Assembly: GCA_014323795.1 (NCBI GenBank)
Contig: JACONK010000027.1
Coordinates: 1 to 40,060 of the forward strand
Reading direction: 5' to 3'
Length of the DNA stretch: 40,060 nucleotides
DNA from: Paracoccaceae bacterium
Lineage (GTDB): Bacteria; Pseudomonadota; Alphaproteobacteria; Rhodobacterales; Rhodobacteraceae
Made by a program: the position numbers and the translations under genes. Positions 24,390 through 31,785 of this stretch are shown here, piece by piece; positions within the stretch are counted from its first letter, which is position 1; every line of letters begins with the position of its first letter. Under the pieces are notes generated by a model, which was given only the letters and a program-made list of their open reading frames with translations, was not told the origin of the DNA and did no database searches.

Positions 24390-27128
24390 ATGACGTTTTT
24401 GTCCCGCATAACCCGCGTACCCCTGGCCCTGAACCCGGATCTGGCGTGCGACTTGCCGATTTTGGATGCGACTCTGCGGGAACTGACCAATGGTATGGCC
24501 GGTTCGTCGCCCTATCTGCGCAGCCTGTTGCTGCGAGAGGCGGAATGGTTCTCGGACGCGGCCAGAAGGCCACCGGAGGAGATATTTGCCGACATCCTTG
24601 CATCGGTCCCCGAAGAGGCCCCGCTCAACACCCTGCGCCTGGCCAAACGGCGCGGGGCACTTTTGCTGGCGGCCTGTGACCTGGCAGGTGTCTGGACCCT
24701 GGAGGAGGTCACCGGGGCCCTGACACAACTGGCGGATTTAGCCGTGGGTCGGGCACTTGATGCGCGAATCGCAGCTCAGCATGCGTGCGGGCAACTGCCT
24801 TTTATAACGGCTGCCGCGGCGGGACTGGTCGTGCTCGCCATGGGCAAGATGGGGGCGAGGGAACTAAACTATTCCAGCGACATCGACCTGATCTGCCTGT
24901 TTGACGCCGAACGGTTGGAACCTGCTGATTACGAACATATTCGTTTTGTTTTTCAAAAGGTTGTACGCGATACGATGCATGATTTAAGTATGCAAAAAGG
25001 TGATGGATACGTCTTTCGAACAGACCTGCGGCTGCGCCCCAACCCGGCGGTCACACCCGTCTGTGTGCCTATCGACGCGGCGGAACGTTACTACGAATCC
25101 GAAGGCCGCACCTGGGAAAGGGCGGCCTTCATTAAGGCACGGGCCGCTGCCGGTGACCTTGCCGAAGGGGCTGCCTTCCTTGATCGGCTGAAACCGTTCA
25201 TTTGGCGTCGTCATCTCGATTTCAACGCGATTCGCGATGCCCATGACATGCGTCTTGCGATCAGGGAGCTTAGGAATCTCGCATGCCCGATTATTGTGTC
25301 GGGCCACGACATGAAGCTCGGGCGCGGCGGCATCCGGGAGATTGAGTTTTTTGCCCAGACCCGGCAGCTTATTTCCGGCGGACGCGACGCCGGCCTGCGG
25401 CAGCGCGGCACGGTGGGGGCCCTGGCCGCCCTCGCGGCAAAGTCCTGGATCACGGATGATGTGGCGCATACGCTAACCGCCGCTTATCGTGCGCATCGCG
25501 AAACCGAACACCGCATCCAGATGTTGCGCGATGCGCAGACCCACCAGATGCCCGCAGGCGGTGACGCGCTCGATCAGGTGGCACGGCTTTCGGGTTGGGC
25601 TGACACGTACGCTTACGCCAAAGATCAGCAGGCCCGACTGGAACAGGTCAACGCCATCATCGAAGGTTTCTTCACACCGCGCCCCATCGCGGCGGAATCC
25701 GCGCCAGAGATACCCCGACACAAAGCTATCATGGACAGCTGGAGTGGTCTGCCTGCCTTCCGGTCTGCCCGTGCGATAGAGGCTTTTGATCGCTTCCGCC
25801 CGGCCTTGGCCGTGCGGATCAACGGACGCAGCAATCCCGACGCCACGCTTGATGCCCTGGATACATTCATGCGAGGCCTGCCGGCAGGCGTACAACTCTT
25901 CGCGCTTTTTGAGGCCAAACCGCAACTGCTGGACCTGCTTCTGGATGTCTGCGCCACGTCACCTGCCCTGTCTGACTATCTGTCACGCAATACAAATGTT
26001 TTGGATGCGGTGATCAGCGGCGGCTTTTTTGATCTGCCCGATAGCCAGGATTGGCAGTCAAGCCTGTCGCTGACACTTCAGGCTGCGGGTGACTTTGAAG
26101 AGGCACTTTTGTGTGCGCGGTGCTGGCAGAAGGAACAGCATTTCCGCGTGGGTGTGCTGTTGCTGCGCCGGATGGCGGAACTGGAGGAAGTGGAAGCCGG
26201 GTATTCCGACCTTGCCCAGGCCGTGCTGTGCGCCCTGGTTCCGGTGGTGGAGGCAGAGGTCATCCGCCGTTACGGACGGTTTCGGTCGCAGTCGGTAGCT
26301 GTACTCGCCATGGGCAAGCTGGGCTCTGCCCAGATGACGGCGACATCCGATCTGGACCTGATTGTTGTCTACGACGCTGAAGGGGAGTGCGCCGATGGCA
26401 GGCAGGGGTTGGCCCCCCAGCAGTATTTCGCCCGTTTCACCCAGACATTGATCACGGCATTGAGCTCTGCCATGTCGGAAGGGCGGCTTTATGAAGTGGA
26501 TATGCGTCTTCGTCCGTCCGGGCGGCAGGGGCCGGTGGCTGTGTCACGCACTGCGTTTGACGATTACCAGAAAACCCGGGCCTGCACCTGGAAACGTTTG
26601 GCCCTGACGCGTGCACGATCCGTTGCCGGGCACCCCGGGTTGCGCGACATGCTGGAGGCGACCCGCCGTGAAGTGCTGGGAACCCCGCATGACCCGCGGA
26701 AAGTGCTCAGGGATGTGCGCGACATGCGTGTGCGGCTGACAAGTGCCAAGGGCGGGAAGGCTGATGTCTGGGAAGTAAAGGATCGTCCCGGCGGGCTTTT
26801 GGAACTGGAGCTGGCCGCCCAAACCCTGACCTTGATCGAAGGGAAGACAGAACGCTCTCCGCGGTCGCAGTTGCTGAATTCCAGGTACCTCAACAAGGCC
26901 ACGGCGGAGGTGCTTGTTGACGGGCACCGGTTTCTGAGCGCGGTGCAGCAGGCCCAGCGTCTGCTGGTGGACGGGGCGTTTGACCCCGCCAGGCTGGGTC
27001 AGGATGGGCAGGACTTTCTCTGCCGGTTCACCCGGCTCAACGACATTGACGCCGTATTGGCAAAGATGAATGAGGTGTGCGCCCGAAACGCCACAGCCGT
27101 GACGGAAATTCTACGTCAGCGGGCGTGA
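24390..27128 (+). CDS. glnE: bifunctional glutamine synthetase adenylyltransferase/deadenylylase
   Basis: A 912-residue GlnE, which adds and removes AMP on glutamine synthetase in response to PII and glutamine. The two nucleotidyltransferase domains are visible. One has AMGKMGARELNYSSDIDL (about residues 150-167) and the other AMGKLGSAQMTATSDLDL (about 639-656), each with the G-S/T-x-D-x-D core. Between and after them lie helical regulatory regions (GRGGIREIEFFAQ and RPGGLLELELAAQ). The length is slightly below the usual 920-980. It is divergent from ybaK and followed 62 bp later by a small gene on the same strand. Confidence 0.96.
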   Translation: MTFLSRITRVPLALNPDLACDLPILDATLRELTNGMAGSSPYLRSLLLREAEWFSDAARRPPEEIFADILASVPEEAPLNTLRLAKRRGALLLAACDLAGVWTLEEVTGALTQLADLAVGRALDARIAAQHACGQLPFITAAAAGLVVLAMGKMGARELNYSSDIDLICLFDAERLEPADYEHIRFVFQKVVRDTMHDLSMQKGDGYVFRTDLRLRPNPAVTPVCVPIDAAERYYESEGRTWERAAFIKARAAAGDLAEGAAFLDRLKPFIWRRHLDFNAIRDAHDMRLAIRELRNLACPIIVSGHDMKLGRGGIREIEFFAQTRQLISGGRDAGLRQRGTVGALAALAAKSWITDDVAHTLTAAYRAHRETEHRIQMLRDAQTHQMPAGGDALDQVARLSGWADTYAYAKDQQARLEQVNAIIEGFFTPRPIAAESAPEIPRHKAIMDSWSGLPAFRSARAIEAFDRFRPALAVRINGRSNPDATLDALDTFMRGLPAGVQLFALFEAKPQLLDLLLDVCATSPALSDYLSRNTNVLDAVISGGFFDLPDSQDWQSSLSLTLQAAGDFEEALLCARCWQKEQHFRVGVLLLRRMAELEEVEAGYSDLAQAVLCALVPVVEAEVIRRYGRFRSQSVAVLAMGKLGSAQMTATSDLDLIVVYDAEGECADGRQGLAPQQYFARFTQTLITALSSAMSEGRLYEVDMRLRPSGRQGPVAVSRTAFDDYQKTRACTWKRLALTRARSVAGHPGLRDMLEATRREVLGTPHDPRKVLRDVRDMRVRLTSAKGGKADVWEVKDRPGGLLELELAAQTLTLIEGKTERSPRSQLLNSRYLNKATAEVLVDGHRFLSAVQQAQRLLVDGAFDPARLGQDGQDFLCRFTRLNDIDAVLAKMNEVCARNATAVTEILRQRA

Positions 27129-27626: not shown

Positions 27627-28631
27627 ATGTGGCGCATGATATCTCTCGCAATCTGGCTTGCTGCCCTGGCTGTAGCGGCTGTTCTTTTGGTTCTGTGGTA
27701 TACCCCTGCGCAAGGTCCGCGGTTTGTCATGCCGATCGGGTGTGAGTTGGGGAAAAACTGCTATCTGCAGCAGTTCGTGGATCATGATCCCGGCCCCGGT
27801 GCGCAGGATTTCACCTGTGGATCCGCCACGTATGACGGCCATAAAGGCACCGATTTTCGTATCAGCCGCCGCGACATGGAAGCGGGCGTGAACGTGCTGG
27901 CCCCGGCCCCCGGGCGCATACGCGCCCTGCGCGACGGAATGGCGGATATCCTGGCACCTGATCCGGCCTCTGTTCAGGACAGGGAATGCGGAAACGGGGT
28001 CTTAATTGATCATGCCGATGGCTGGTCATCCCAGTTGTGCCACCTGAAACAAGGCTCTGTTGCCGTTCATCAGGGACAACAGGTTGTGGCAGGGCAGATC
28101 CTGGGGCAGGTGGGCTTGTCAGGAAAGACCTCTTTCCCCCATGTGCACGTTACGTTTCGGCGGGATGGTGCCGTGGTGGACCCGTTTGCCCCGGATCTTG
28201 CCCCGGCCACCTGCGGCGGCGACGCCGGCACCCCGCTCTGGTCAGATACCGCATTGCGGGAAGAGGCGGCGCACCCGTCACGGCTGATCGCAGCCGGCTA
28301 CGCATCCCGCGCCCCGGCCCTTGACGATATCATGAACGGGGACTATGATACGGTGGCCCCGGTCAGCAACGCGCCCCTTGTTATTTGGGGCCTTGCCATC
28401 AACGGGCAACAGGATGATCAGCTTGTTATTGAGATCACCTTCCCCTCCGGCGAGGTTGCCGCGCCGCCGACTGAGGGGCTTGATAGAACCAAGGCCCAGT
28501 TTTTCCGGTTCTTTGGCAAGCGTGCCCCGGCCGGGGGGTGGCCTGCGGGTGACTACAGATGGTCGGTGAAACTGGTCCGTCAGGGGGCAGTGATCGATCA
28601 GCGGGACGGCTTTACCAAGATAGGAGGTTAG
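27627..28631 (+). CDS. M23-family (LytM-type) metallopeptidase, membrane-anchored
   Basis: A 334-residue protein with an N-terminal membrane segment or uncleaved signal (about residues 5-24) and an M23 zinc peptidase domain. Metal and catalytic residues are visible as His72 and Asp76 (GHKGTDF), His139 (SQLCHLKQGS) and His172/His174 (PHVHVTF). M23 enzymes cut peptidoglycan cross-bridges or act as division and envelope regulators. The start follows AAAGGG. The last base of its TAG stop is the first base of the IS5 relic's inverted repeat, so the C-terminus (GFTKIGG) may have been set by that insertion. Confidence 0.9.
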   Translation: MWRMISLAIWLAALAVAAVLLVLWYTPAQGPRFVMPIGCELGKNCYLQQFVDHDPGPGAQDFTCGSATYDGHKGTDFRISRRDMEAGVNVLAPAPGRIRALRDGMADILAPDPASVQDRECGNGVLIDHADGWSSQLCHLKQGSVAVHQGQQVVAGQILGQVGLSGKTSFPHVHVTFRRDGAVVDPFAPDLAPATCGGDAGTPLWSDTALREEAAHPSRLIAAGYASRAPALDDIMNGDYDTVAPVSNAPLVIWGLAINGQQDDQLVIEITFPSGEVAAPPTEGLDRTKAQFFRFFGKRAPAGGWPAGDYRWSVKLVRQGAVIDQRDGFTKIGG

Positions 28632-29198
28632 GGTCAGAACCCATTGGTTTTTATTTTCCGGTGTGGCTCGTGGTTGGGGAAGCTGCGCAGGTGGCCATGT
28701 CCGATCTGTTCCGGCTGACAGCGGCGCGGATGGTGCGCCACACCCTTTTTCCCAGGTTCCGCGGTAAGCCACGTGCTGATGGCCGGCGCGTTCCGGGCAC
28801 CACAGGCTTCATCAATCGCAATGGCTGACAGAGGCGAGATGCCCCGGCTGCCTGTGGTACGCACAAAACACCGTATAATCGTTGGAAATGGTGGAGTGCC
28901 GCGGGCATCCTGGCACGGATTGTGGCCAGTCTCGCCGCCGGGCGCGGCCCCGCCACAGCGGCCCCCGCCACAACCGGACAAAGGGATACGCACGTGCCTC
29001 CCTGGCCGAAACAAGCGCAGGAAAACCATCAGATACGACAGGCACCGATACAAAAAAACGCAACCGGGGCGGAATCATGTTCGGCACTCTGTGGGGATTG
29101 GCGGTGCGGTACCACCGGATACGGCAGATGCCCGAAGGCCTTCCTGCCGGCAGGCTCTCGCGCAGCACCCGTCATCTGTTGGATATGAGTCCTGACCC
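28631..29198 (+). mobile_element. IS5-family insertion sequence, internally deleted
   Basis: A 568-bp element bounded by imperfect inverted repeats. The left end is GGGTCAGAACCCAT (28631-28644) and the right end, read inward, is GGGTCAGGACTCAT (29198-29185), matching at 12 of 14 positions. TA lies outside both ends (28629-28630 and 29199-29200), as expected for IS5 relatives that target TA-containing sites. It carries a broken transposase. Full-length relatives are around 800-850 bp, so the centre has been lost. Confidence 0.85.
28697..29188 (+). pseudogene. IS5-family transposase relic
   Basis: The N-terminus MSDLFRLTAARMVRHTLFPR and GKPRADGRRV...FINRNG (28697-28825) ends at a stop. HKTPYNRWKWWSAAGILARI (from 28862) follows in another frame. 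The part that should hold the first catalytic Asp is missing. The C-terminal pieces KGIRTCLPGRNKRRKTIRYD (about 28981-29040), KKRNRGGIMFG and CPKAFLPAG...VICWI (to 29188) appear in shifted frames. It cannot encode an active enzyme. Confidence 0.85.
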
Positions 29199-29394
29199 TA
29201 ATCTTGCCCGGATCGTGCAGTGCAACGGGCAGGATCATCGCGTCGCGCAAAAGTTTATCGTAGCGAAAGGAATCAATCAATCTCTCCGCGACAGCTGCCA
29301 CATCCCGCATGTCATATACTGCCGGGTGTTCTGGCAGATCACTGCCTTCCGGGGGACTTTTACCCGGCCAGGCGGTAATTGCATTTTGGATCAT
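29199..29394 (-). pseudogene. cas3: cas3 N-terminal stump (type I-E-like HD domain)
   Basis: About 65 residues reading leftward from the ATG at 29394 match the start of Cas3: AITAWPGKSPPEGSD (family W-GKS), then VYDMRDVAAVAERLI (family YH-LDVAAVA), then LPVALHDPGKI (family ALHDIGK). It stops exactly at the IS5 relic boundary (29198), and no helicase part follows. Two HD-domain positions are altered (the His of YH is Asp; HDIGK is HDPGK), so it had also begun to decay. Cas3 is the nuclease-helicase of type I CRISPR-Cas. The type I-E assignment rests on the W-GKS...YH-LDVAAVA layout and the adjacent repeat. Confidence 0.72.
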
Positions 29395-29452
29395 GGGAAG
29401 TTTTTGATTCAATCGCCGCCTTGTATCTGATAGCCTGCGACACCGCCAGTAT

Positions 29453-29481
29453 CAGTTCATCCCCACGTGGGTGGGGAACAG
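29453..29481 (-). repeat. solitary type I-E-like CRISPR repeat (copy A)
   Basis: Read on the minus strand, the 29 nt begin CTGTTCCCCACCCACGTGGG and end GATGAACTG. Type I-E repeats have the same length and plan: GTTCCCC, a short centre, GGGGAT, AAC, G near the end. The stem is formed by TCCCCAC/GTGGGGA. It lies 58 bp upstream of the cas3 stump and 33 bp downstream of the stop of the 112-residue gene. There is no second repeat at the 61-bp spacing an array would need. An alternative reading is a transcription terminator, but no T tract follows. Confidence 0.6.
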
Positions 29482-29514: not shown

Positions 29515-29853
29515 TCATTTGTATATCGAGCCATCCACTACGCGGAGTTTTACAATCCCACGGCGTCGTTTCAGTGAGGCATACTCGGCGTCCTTGCGGG
29601 TCTTGTATGTTTTCGCCAACAAACGCCACTGACCGTCAAAACGATACATGGCACCGAAAGGGCGGTGCTCCATTTCGGTGATCTGCCCCGGCCTTTGCAG
29701 CCTTGCTGCACCCGATAGTAGAATGGGCAGGCGGTATTCCAGCTTGGCAAGGCAGTTTGCCACGCTCTGGCGGTCTTCGAACACCCTGCGCACCAAAAAC
29801 CATCCCCGGTTGTCGTTCCGCAGCCGGTAGACCACTGCAAATTTATCCTTCAT
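29515..29853 (-). CDS. small hypothetical protein, 112 residues
   Basis: I do not recognise the family. The protein (MKDKFAVVYRLRNDNRGWFL...) is basic and contains two similar aromatic strand-like segments, NDNRGWFLVRRVFEDRQSVA and FDGQWRLLAKTYKTRKDAEY, which suggest an internal duplication of a small beta-rich unit. The ATG at 29853 is chosen because GAAGGG lies about 7 nt upstream. It is flanked by the two CRISPR-like repeats: copy A downstream of its stop, copy B 57 bp upstream of its start. Confidence 0.65.
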   Translation of the reverse strand: MKDKFAVVYRLRNDNRGWFLVRRVFEDRQSVANCLAKLEYRLPILLSGAARLQRPGQITEMEHRPFGAMYRFDGQWRLLAKTYKTRKDAEYASLKRRRGIVKLRVVDGSIYK

Positions 29854-29910
29854 TTCGTTGCCCTTCTTTCCTCTCTGAACCTGTATCCGCACTCAAGCGT
29901 CTGCCACAAA

Positions 29911-29936
29911 CTGTTCCCCACGTGGGTGGGGAACAG
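29911..29936 (-). repeat. solitary CRISPR-like palindromic repeat (copy B)
   Basis: A perfect inverted repeat with 11-bp arms CTGTTCCCCAC and GTGGGGAACAG around GTGG. It shares 24 identical bases with copy A (29915-29938 against 29460-29483). The copies are 455 bp apart and in the same orientation. Unlike copy A, its far end reads GGGGAACAG instead of GGGGATGAACTG. It begins 8 bp after the stop of the 80-residue gene, so it could also serve as that gene's 3' hairpin. Confidence 0.6.
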
Positions 29937-29944
29937 TGTGGTGT

Positions 29945-30187
29945 TCAATCGTATGTCATCGACAGATGATTGCCACTGAAGGTCAGGCTGACCCTTGGTC
30001 CATTTTCCGGTGGCGGGGTTTCACTGATCTCATACCCGATAACCTCTGCGCCATTCATGGTGCTGTTGCCTACGACAGCTTTCAGCCATCTTTCCAGTTC
30101 ATCCGGGGAGCCATCCGGCGGTGTGCATGATCCTGACGGGACAAGATCGCCATCGGCAGTCTTGATGCTCCAATAGAAAGTTGTCAT
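29945..30187 (-). CDS. small hypothetical protein, 80 residues
   Basis: Family not recognised. The protein (MTTFYWSIKTADGDLVPSGS...) is acidic, with a central DELERWLKAVVG helix and beta-strand-like ends (VIGYEISETPPPEN, RVSLTFSGNHLSMTYD). The start is supported by AAAGGAAG about 8 nt upstream. It belongs to a run of three small minus-strand genes and is followed directly by the palindrome at 29911-29936. Confidence 0.65.
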   Translation of the reverse strand: MTTFYWSIKTADGDLVPSGSCTPPDGSPDELERWLKAVVGNSTMNGAEVIGYEISETPPPENGPRVSLTFSGNHLSMTYD

Positions 30188-30316
30188 TGATTCGCTTCCT
30201 TTGCTTTTCTGCCCGGTGGCCGGCCGGGCGTTTGCTTTTCAGCGCGGGTGCCGCCCGCGGACACCTGTCCCGTGTGGGAGGGCAGGCGTTTTGCTTGTTC
30301 AGCCGCCCGGCACGGC

Positions 30317-30583: not shown

Positions 30584-30778
30584 CTAATCGAGATCTTTCA
30601 GGCAACCTTTGATTTCATTCAACGTGTCCTCGGAATGTTTGACTGCAGCCGTAAGCCACTCGCGTAACAGTCCCTTTGTGAGTTCTTCACGCTGGAAGTC
30701 ACTGCACGCCCTATCCATGGTACTCCACATGGAATCGAGGCATTCGACATGTCTGCCGATTGCAGATGCGTTTCTCAT
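30584..30778 (-). CDS. small hypothetical helical protein, 64 residues
   Basis: Family not recognised. The protein (MRNASAIGRHVECLDSMWST...) is predicted all-helical and mildly acidic, with two Cys near the N-terminus (positions 13 and 26) and one near the C-terminus (GCLKDLD). The ATG at 30778 is fixed by a strong AAAGGAGAAG site. A good sigma70-type promoter lies 73 bp upstream, and a nested hairpin follows the stop. This is the best-equipped gene for expression in the accessory region. Confidence 0.7.
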   Translation of the reverse strand: MRNASAIGRHVECLDSMWSTMDRACSDFQREELTKGLLREWLTAAVKHSEDTLNEIKGCLKDLD

Positions 30779-30850
30779 AATCTTCTCCTTTGGCGACATT
30801 GTGACATTATATGAGGCGGGGGGTGTCGCTGCGCCAAGCCTCACTTTGGT

Positions 30851-31041: not shown

Positions 31042-31785
31042 TTACTTGCCAAGGGTTGCAACAATCGCCCCGAAGTCAGCAGCCTTCAGCGAAGCCCCCC
31101 CAACCAGTCCGCCATCCACATTCGTGACCGCGGTGATCTTTTCCACGTTTCGCGGAGTCATGGATCCGCCGTAGAGGATGCGGATCGCGTCACCGTCAGC
31201 CGCGCAACGGTTTGTCAGGCGGGATCGGATGAAATTGTGCACCTCCGCAATTTTAGCAAGTGACGGTGTTTTGCCGGTACCGATGGCCCAAACCGGTTCA
31301 TAAGCTATGACTGTGTTACTGCCACAGGCCCCGTCGGGAACGGAACCGGCAAGCTGCCTCCCCACGATATCAAGGGTGTTGCCAGCGTCGCGTTCCTTGG
31401 ACGTTTCGCCAATACACACAATGGCCGTGAGACCTGCAGCCCAAACCGCACGGGTTTTTGCGCATACCAGCGCGTCACTCTCCCCATAGGCGGCGCGGCG
31501 TTCCGAGTGGCCGAGGATCACATACCGCGCACCGGTATCCGCGATCATCGGGGCAGAGATGTCGCCGGTGTGGGCACCCGCCTCGTTTTCATGGCAGTCT
31601 TGGGCACCCACCTCGATGGCCATGGGCGCACAGATTTCTGCCATTTTGCACATCAGGGTGGCGGGCGGGCAGACCACGATATCGCAGCGGGGGGCGGGAT
31701 GGGCGGTGTGCAGGGTTTCCACCTCTGCCAAAGTCTGCATCAACCCGTTCATCTTCCAGTTCCCGGCGGCGAGTTTGCGTCTCAT
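31042..31785 (-). CDS. tpiA: triosephosphate isomerase
   Basis: A 247-residue TIM-barrel enzyme that interconverts dihydroxyacetone phosphate and glyceraldehyde 3-phosphate. Catalytic residues are visible: Asn/Lys in AGNWKMNG, His in ILGHSERR, and Glu in AYEPVWAIGTGKTP. The phosphate-binding end YGGSMTPRN and GGLVGGASL is also present. It lies apart from the other glycolytic genes. An AAGGAC site lies upstream of the ATG. Confidence 0.97.
   Translation of the reverse strand: MRRKLAAGNWKMNGLMQTLAEVETLHTAHPAPRCDIVVCPPATLMCKMAEICAPMAIEVGAQDCHENEAGAHTGDISAPMIADTGARYVILGHSERRAAYGESDALVCAKTRAVWAAGLTAIVCIGETSKERDAGNTLDIVGRQLAGSVPDGACGSNTVIAYEPVWAIGTGKTPSLAKIAEVHNFIRSRLTNRCAADGDAIRILYGGSMTPRNVEKITAVTNVDGGLVGGASLKAADFGAIVATLGK

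Follow-up and report, generated by a model that had tools for sequence, protein, structure and literature searches.

In some Salmonella and Shigella, a cas3 pseudogene was left behind after deletion of the type I-E operon, as far as the available part of the source describes it (PMC2886076). Likewise, insertion sequences, including IS5 in an experiment with E. coli, insert into type I-E cas genes and inactivate them, according to the accessible portion of a further report (PMC10359306). Here, a stretch of 40,060 nucleotides from a Paracoccaceae bacterium (hereafter the window) was analyzed, in which a remnant of a type I-E cas3 gene directly adjoins a decayed insertion sequence (Table 1). The relic is real, well delimited and ordinary, with a decay of known kind. 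A literature search on type I-E CRISPR-Cas and cas3 in Rhodobacteraceae found nothing, and this precise case is not claimed to be unpublished.

Table 1. Features in and around the cas3 relic (window positions).
Feature	Positions	Strand	Basis or remark
glnE, left flank of conserved neighbourhood	24390..27128	+	PF03710; synteny in relatives
M23 peptidase gene	27627..28631	+	PF01551; stop codon TAG overlaps left end of IS
Decayed IS5-family element	28631..29198	+	terminal GGGTCAG...CTGACCC; TA on both sides; 568 bp
cas3 5' stump, pseudogene of type I-E Cas3 HD domain	29199..29394	-	65 codons; profile and conserved-residue comparison
58-bp stretch between R1 and stump	29395..29452	-	homologous to stretch upstream of cas3 on contig C18
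Solitary type I-E CRISPR repeat R1	29453..29481	-	2 mismatches to C18 array repeat; stem intact
Orphan ORFb, between the two solitary repeats	29515..29853	-	112 aa
Second type I-E repeat R2	29908..29936	-	shares its 21-nt core with R1; array core differs at one position
Orphan ORFa	29945..30187	-	80 aa
Further small ORF beside tpiA	30584-30787	-	no PHROGs match
tpiA, right flank of conserved neighbourhood	31042..31785	-	PF00121

Identity and Decay of the cas3 Stump

All codons of the stump are open, and their translation contains WPGKS, DVAAVAERL and ALHDPGK, the motifs by which the first-pass annotation had correctly recognized a Cas3 HD domain. A profile was built from the Cas3 N-termini of relatives, excluding the stump itself and the Cas3 encoded on contig C18 of the same assembly. 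With this profile, the stump was the sole match among 854 six-frame segments of the window (E 2.2e-21) and reversed window segments gave 0 matches; thus, the likeness to Cas3 is not due to chance, and the stump is the 5' end of a type I-E cas3 gene. The curated models by themselves would leave room for a short reading frame resembling Cas3 by accident, as Pfam Cas3_HD (PF18019; E 0.0026; 18.3 bits, with the gathering score at 23.1) and TIGR01596 (E 0.028) both stayed under their cut-offs. A phmmer search of PDB sequences with the stump retrieved nothing up to E 1. Nevertheless, the profile match and a DNA identity of 84% to C18, which spans non-coding sequence and a CRISPR repeat in addition to coding sequence, refute such an accident, the probability of which is negligible. 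The Cas3 HD profile hit that had been proposed as a check was accordingly obtained with the profile of relatives, whereas the curated Pfam and TIGR models did not deliver it.

A tblastn search with the genome's own Cas3 recovered the stump at E 1e-25, in an alignment extending beyond 29199 to 29128. At the DNA level, homology to the C18 cas3 starts at 29198/29199, directly after the IS5-family remnant. Read in the direction of the gene, it ends there at codon 65, so that the helicase domain of a full-length Cas3 is absent; the earlier claim of a break exactly at the IS5 end is borne out to the base. Residue identity amounts to 78.5% over the 65 positions with the C18 Cas3 and to 60.7% with the best aligned relative.

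The stump deviates at four positions on which 66-74 of 74 relatives agree, which marks it as a pseudogene. These are H28D (H in 74/74 relatives), L30R (L in 73/74), L56P (L in 71/74) and L62P (L in 66/74), counted over the relatives having a residue at the respective alignment column; the residue of the stump occurs in 0/74 relatives at each of them. The C18 Cas3 retains the consensus at all four sites. The altered histidine belongs to the Y-H-x-L-D motif and presumably serves, together with the retained H60-D61, as a ligand of the HD metals, which leaves the set of metal-binding residues incomplete. In comparison with the C18 cas3, 9 synonymous and 15 non-synonymous changes were counted (pN 0.10, pS 0.19), corresponding to rough estimates of dS 0.22 and dN 0.11 from 65 codons only. 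As the helicase part is absent, the HD domain is present only in its first part and the conserved histidine is changed, the stump is presumably inert.

The IS5-Family Element

The element beside the stump is without an intact transposase frame. Its length also falls short of that of copy L182, which spans 836 bp and is the best preserved among ten fetched stretches. L182 features TA at both flanks and two ORFs matching DUF4096 ('IS4/5 family') and DDE_Tnp_1; in most other copies compared, the flanking TA is absent. The inverted ends, a right end common to 6/8 aligned copies within one base (window 29198-29200) and the transposase domains of L182 assign the window element to the IS5 family, of which it is, judged by sequence, a broken remnant. 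Other copies in the genome are many and mostly broken, with at least 39 matches (40/57 candidates scored), some of which are cas or repeat sequence.

In pairwise comparisons, the spans of which differ between pairs, the window element showed 74% identity to copy L173 on the left and 88% on the right (Fisher p 1e-4), and 75% and 87% to copy L174 (p 0.003), while L173 and L174 gave 87% and 86% with each other (p 0.7). This split towards both copies, in the absence of a split between them, suggests that the window element may be a mosaic resulting from recombination between two IS copies. Against L182 (69% left, 73% right) and L179 (73% and 77%), the halves differ little. The mosaic pattern could equally be explained by gene conversion in other IS copies, and the flanking TA, comprising just 2 bp, is likewise compatible with a plain insertion and a later deletion.

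A Fuller Type I-E Locus on Contig C18

Contig C18 carries the full set of eight type I-E cas genes, with cas1 frameshifted, together with a five-repeat array. Matches to NCBIfam models over cut-off were obtained for Cse1, Cas7, Cas5, Cse2, Cas6e, Cas1e (the part before the frameshift) and Cas2e. The uninterrupted cas3 encodes 841 aa and matches cas3_core and cas3_HD over their cut-offs, with the whole-length model PRK09694 below its own. The order is cas6-cas1-cas2-array, then small ORFs with two degenerate single repeats, then cas3-cse1-cas7-cas5-cse2; the array lies beside cas2 and features a spacing of 61-62 nt. The cas1 frame is shifted at a 13-bp tandem duplication (L014:5202-5228, equal to C18 230701-230727), and either spacer acquisition may be dead at this locus or the duplication may be an assembly or sequencing error. 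The small ORFs between array and cas3 (C18 228954-229830, L014:3455-4331) are set apart by single degenerate repeats, and one of them could start at an ATG within the last array repeat. Besides, a third CRISPR remnant on contig C28 (106775-106853, L169:8776-8854) consists of two I-E-like repeats just 21 nt apart, which are followed by a short stretch resembling sequence next to the cas2-proximal end of the C18 array.

With the seven other Cas proteins of C18 as queries (Cas1 represented by its first 200 aa), the window yielded nothing below E 0.16. The first-pass annotation had regarded the rest of cas3 and all other cas genes as absent and the stump as the footprint of a lost CRISPR-Cas system. 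The absence holds for the window and fails for the genome; likewise, a type I-E cas3 remnant it is, but in a genome retaining a fuller I-E locus. Overlooked at that stage were the cas set on another contig and the two repeats in the window.

Repeats and Reading Frames Shared or Orphaned

The stretch 29198-29481 (284 bp), composed of stump, 58-bp stretch and R1, is 84% identical in DNA to C18 228669-228954. This homology reaches from the IS5-family end to the end of R1 (29481), and in both copies a solitary repeat precedes cas3 by ~60 bp. As this repeat-before-cas3 junction is rare in relatives, the window copy and the C18 locus probably share an ancestor. The present C18 R1 differs from the array repeat at 4 positions, the window R1 at 2; copying from the more degenerate C18 repeat is therefore unlikely.

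R1 folds with -12.4 kcal/mol, equal to the array repeat, and R2, in which a changed 3' handle produces a longer hairpin, with -20.0 kcal/mol; the two single repeats on C18 fold differently. Instead of a CRISPR array of 29-nt repeats with ~61-nt spacing, the window site holds two solitary repeats 455 nt apart. When the 25-nt repeat core was searched in viral contigs, one contig (L172) matched, the first 29 bases of which (L172:1-29), at the very end of the contig, are this repeat type. Probably, this reflects an assembly join via a spacer matching the phage.

Orphan small ORFs sit between the solitary repeats, which is an oddity of the locus. Among curated family models, ORFb reached no family over cut-off and ORFa no family. 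Homologues of either were found in the own genome only (1/295 family genomes), with none in plasmids; for ORFb, there were also none in phages, and 9 pattern matches in viral contigs left 0 confirmed. ORFa showed a weak match of 26 residues (47%) in two viral contigs. Compared with the C18 inter-repeat stretch 228955-229224, the scores of three window ORFs did not exceed those of shuffled controls, being reached by 237, 883 and 546 of 1000 shuffles; no similarity to that stretch was seen for the ORF beside tpiA. Next to the C18 repeat at 229225, the 32 nt that follow it (L014:3694-3725) resemble window 30185-30216, just before ORFa, at 21/32 positions; this reflects either chance or a likeness between the 5' regions of two small ORFs.

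Occurrence in Relatives

Among the 24 other genomes of the same genus, 13 gave a strong M23 match (E 2.8e-71 or better), and a stretch around each was examined. In 6 of these 13 stretches, M23 is neighbored by tpiA, at a distance of ~1.65 kb, and by glnE on its opposite side. Between M23 and tpiA, all six carry a gene of ~370 aa with a DUF6456 match, convergent to tpiA; in the other 7, tpiA does not lie within the stretch. An intact cas3 had been expected here by the first-pass annotation, and the DUF6456 gene in its place is the sort of unrelated gene that it had named as speaking against its reading. Finding this gene at the site in six relatives suggests that cas genes may not be ancestral content of the M23-tpiA interval. 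A search for the DUF6456 gene elsewhere in the own genome, run without positive control, gave no match. At E 1e-40, Cas3 occurs in 7/121 genomes including this one and in 0/24 others of its genus. In view of this distribution and of the six relatives with DUF6456, the cas material is probably an arrival in this genome. A close relative having both loci was not found, so that the order of events cannot be dated.

A public genome collection was scanned with the genome's own full-length Cas3; 104 stretches contained a relative, and the best 80 of 104 were kept and supplied the N-termini for the profile described above. An open Cas3 frame of >600 aa is present in 75/80. The order cas3-cse1-cse2-cas7-cas5-cas6-cas1-cas2 is complete in 59/80, and the remaining 21 feature fewer genes in the same order where found. 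Cas genes upstream of cas3 were found in 0/80 relatives, 16 of which have <1 kb upstream. An array-like repeat follows downstream in 24/80, by position after cas2. Among the 64 relatives for which 1 kb or more precedes cas3, an I-E-like array lies there in one (L117, titled Novosphingobium); a further one (L103) has an upstream tandem repeat that is not I-E-like. A looser screen gave some upstream match in 6/64, namely L117, L093 and four that are chance-like by eye. In L093 (titled Rhodobacteraceae bacterium), a plausible single I-E repeat lies on the opposite strand ~150 nt before cas3.

Origin of the Relic

The best explanation, to which a probability of about 0.6 is assigned, is that the stump remains from a second, diverged I-E locus which was trimmed by recombination between IS copies. 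Accordingly, cas3 would have harbored one IS5-family copy and the 3' end of the M23 gene another; their recombination would have deleted the intervening DNA and left one mosaic IS. This would have removed the remainder of cas3, probably along with the other cas genes, and perhaps the DUF6456 gene as well. Counting against a second locus, no remnant of other cas genes lies beside the stump and a full second operon was never seen. The main rival is a partial duplication, in which nothing but the array-end/cas3 5' segment was copied or translocated beside tpiA, from the C18 locus or from its ancestor, a complete second operon never having existed there. The homology of only 284 bp, its end at a repeat, which is a natural recombination point, and the window free of other cas remnants all agree with this possible, if less favored, course. 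Still, it is the IS that defines the left end, so that sequence formerly beyond it cannot be read, and R1 of the window is nearer to the array repeat than R1 of present-day C18. That the host lost its CRISPR-Cas system and kept nothing else than the stump is true of the window alone; with the C18 genes and array in the same assembly, this reading is scarcely credible and is refuted unless C18 represents contamination, for which the assembly estimate is 0.47%.

The solitary repeats invite two further readings. It is improbable, though conceivable, that the array moved before cas3 in this lineage and that orphan genes became lodged between single repeats at both copies, the repeats being Cas6e sites or recombination points. 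If true, Cas6e processing sites would lie in a shared array-ORF-cas3 transcript, or cassette-swapping recombination points would explain why the homology between the copies stops exactly at R1. A guide of the CreR or CreTA type follows a solitary repeat and matches a promoter in its vicinity, and R1 and R2 might similarly control cas3 or the small ORFs: the stem of R1 is kept, that of R2 is stronger, and each precedes reading frames on the same strand. Nevertheless, such regulatory repeats are very unlikely. A scan with the 32 nt after R1 or R2 (full 7-position seed and at least 16 matches, or at least 20/32, among the best matches listed) was empty in window 28.6-31 kb, where promoters are unmapped, and its C18 matches were limited to the homologous R1 stretch and a seed-poor match in cas3 at 228206. 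Moreover, R1 is followed by a dead gene, and neither single repeat of C18 shares the fold of R1.

Comparison With Known Systems

The locus illustrates that the reading of a single window can suggest the loss of a system which persists elsewhere in the genome. It further exemplifies, resolved to the base, how an IS can delimit what remains of a redundant CRISPR-Cas copy in a genome where a fuller one survives. Only two parts might be pursued by a specialist, namely the array-before-cas3 order and the presence of orphan ORFs between single repeats. Within the genome, the C18 locus resembles the window in the 84% identical 5' end of cas3, in repeat type and in the repeat ~60 bp upstream; it differs in its full-length cas3, its other cas genes, its array and its more degenerate solitary repeats. 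With the relics of Salmonella and Shigella, as portrayed in the available part of the source, the window shares a lone cas3 pseudogene at the site (PMC2886076). In contrast to what that part describes, a fuller I-E locus persists here and six relatives of the genus carry DUF6456 at the site (PMC2886076). Compared with cas genes inactivated by insertion sequences, in the portion of that report accessible, the IS itself has decayed here and the cas sequence beyond it is gone (PMC10359306).
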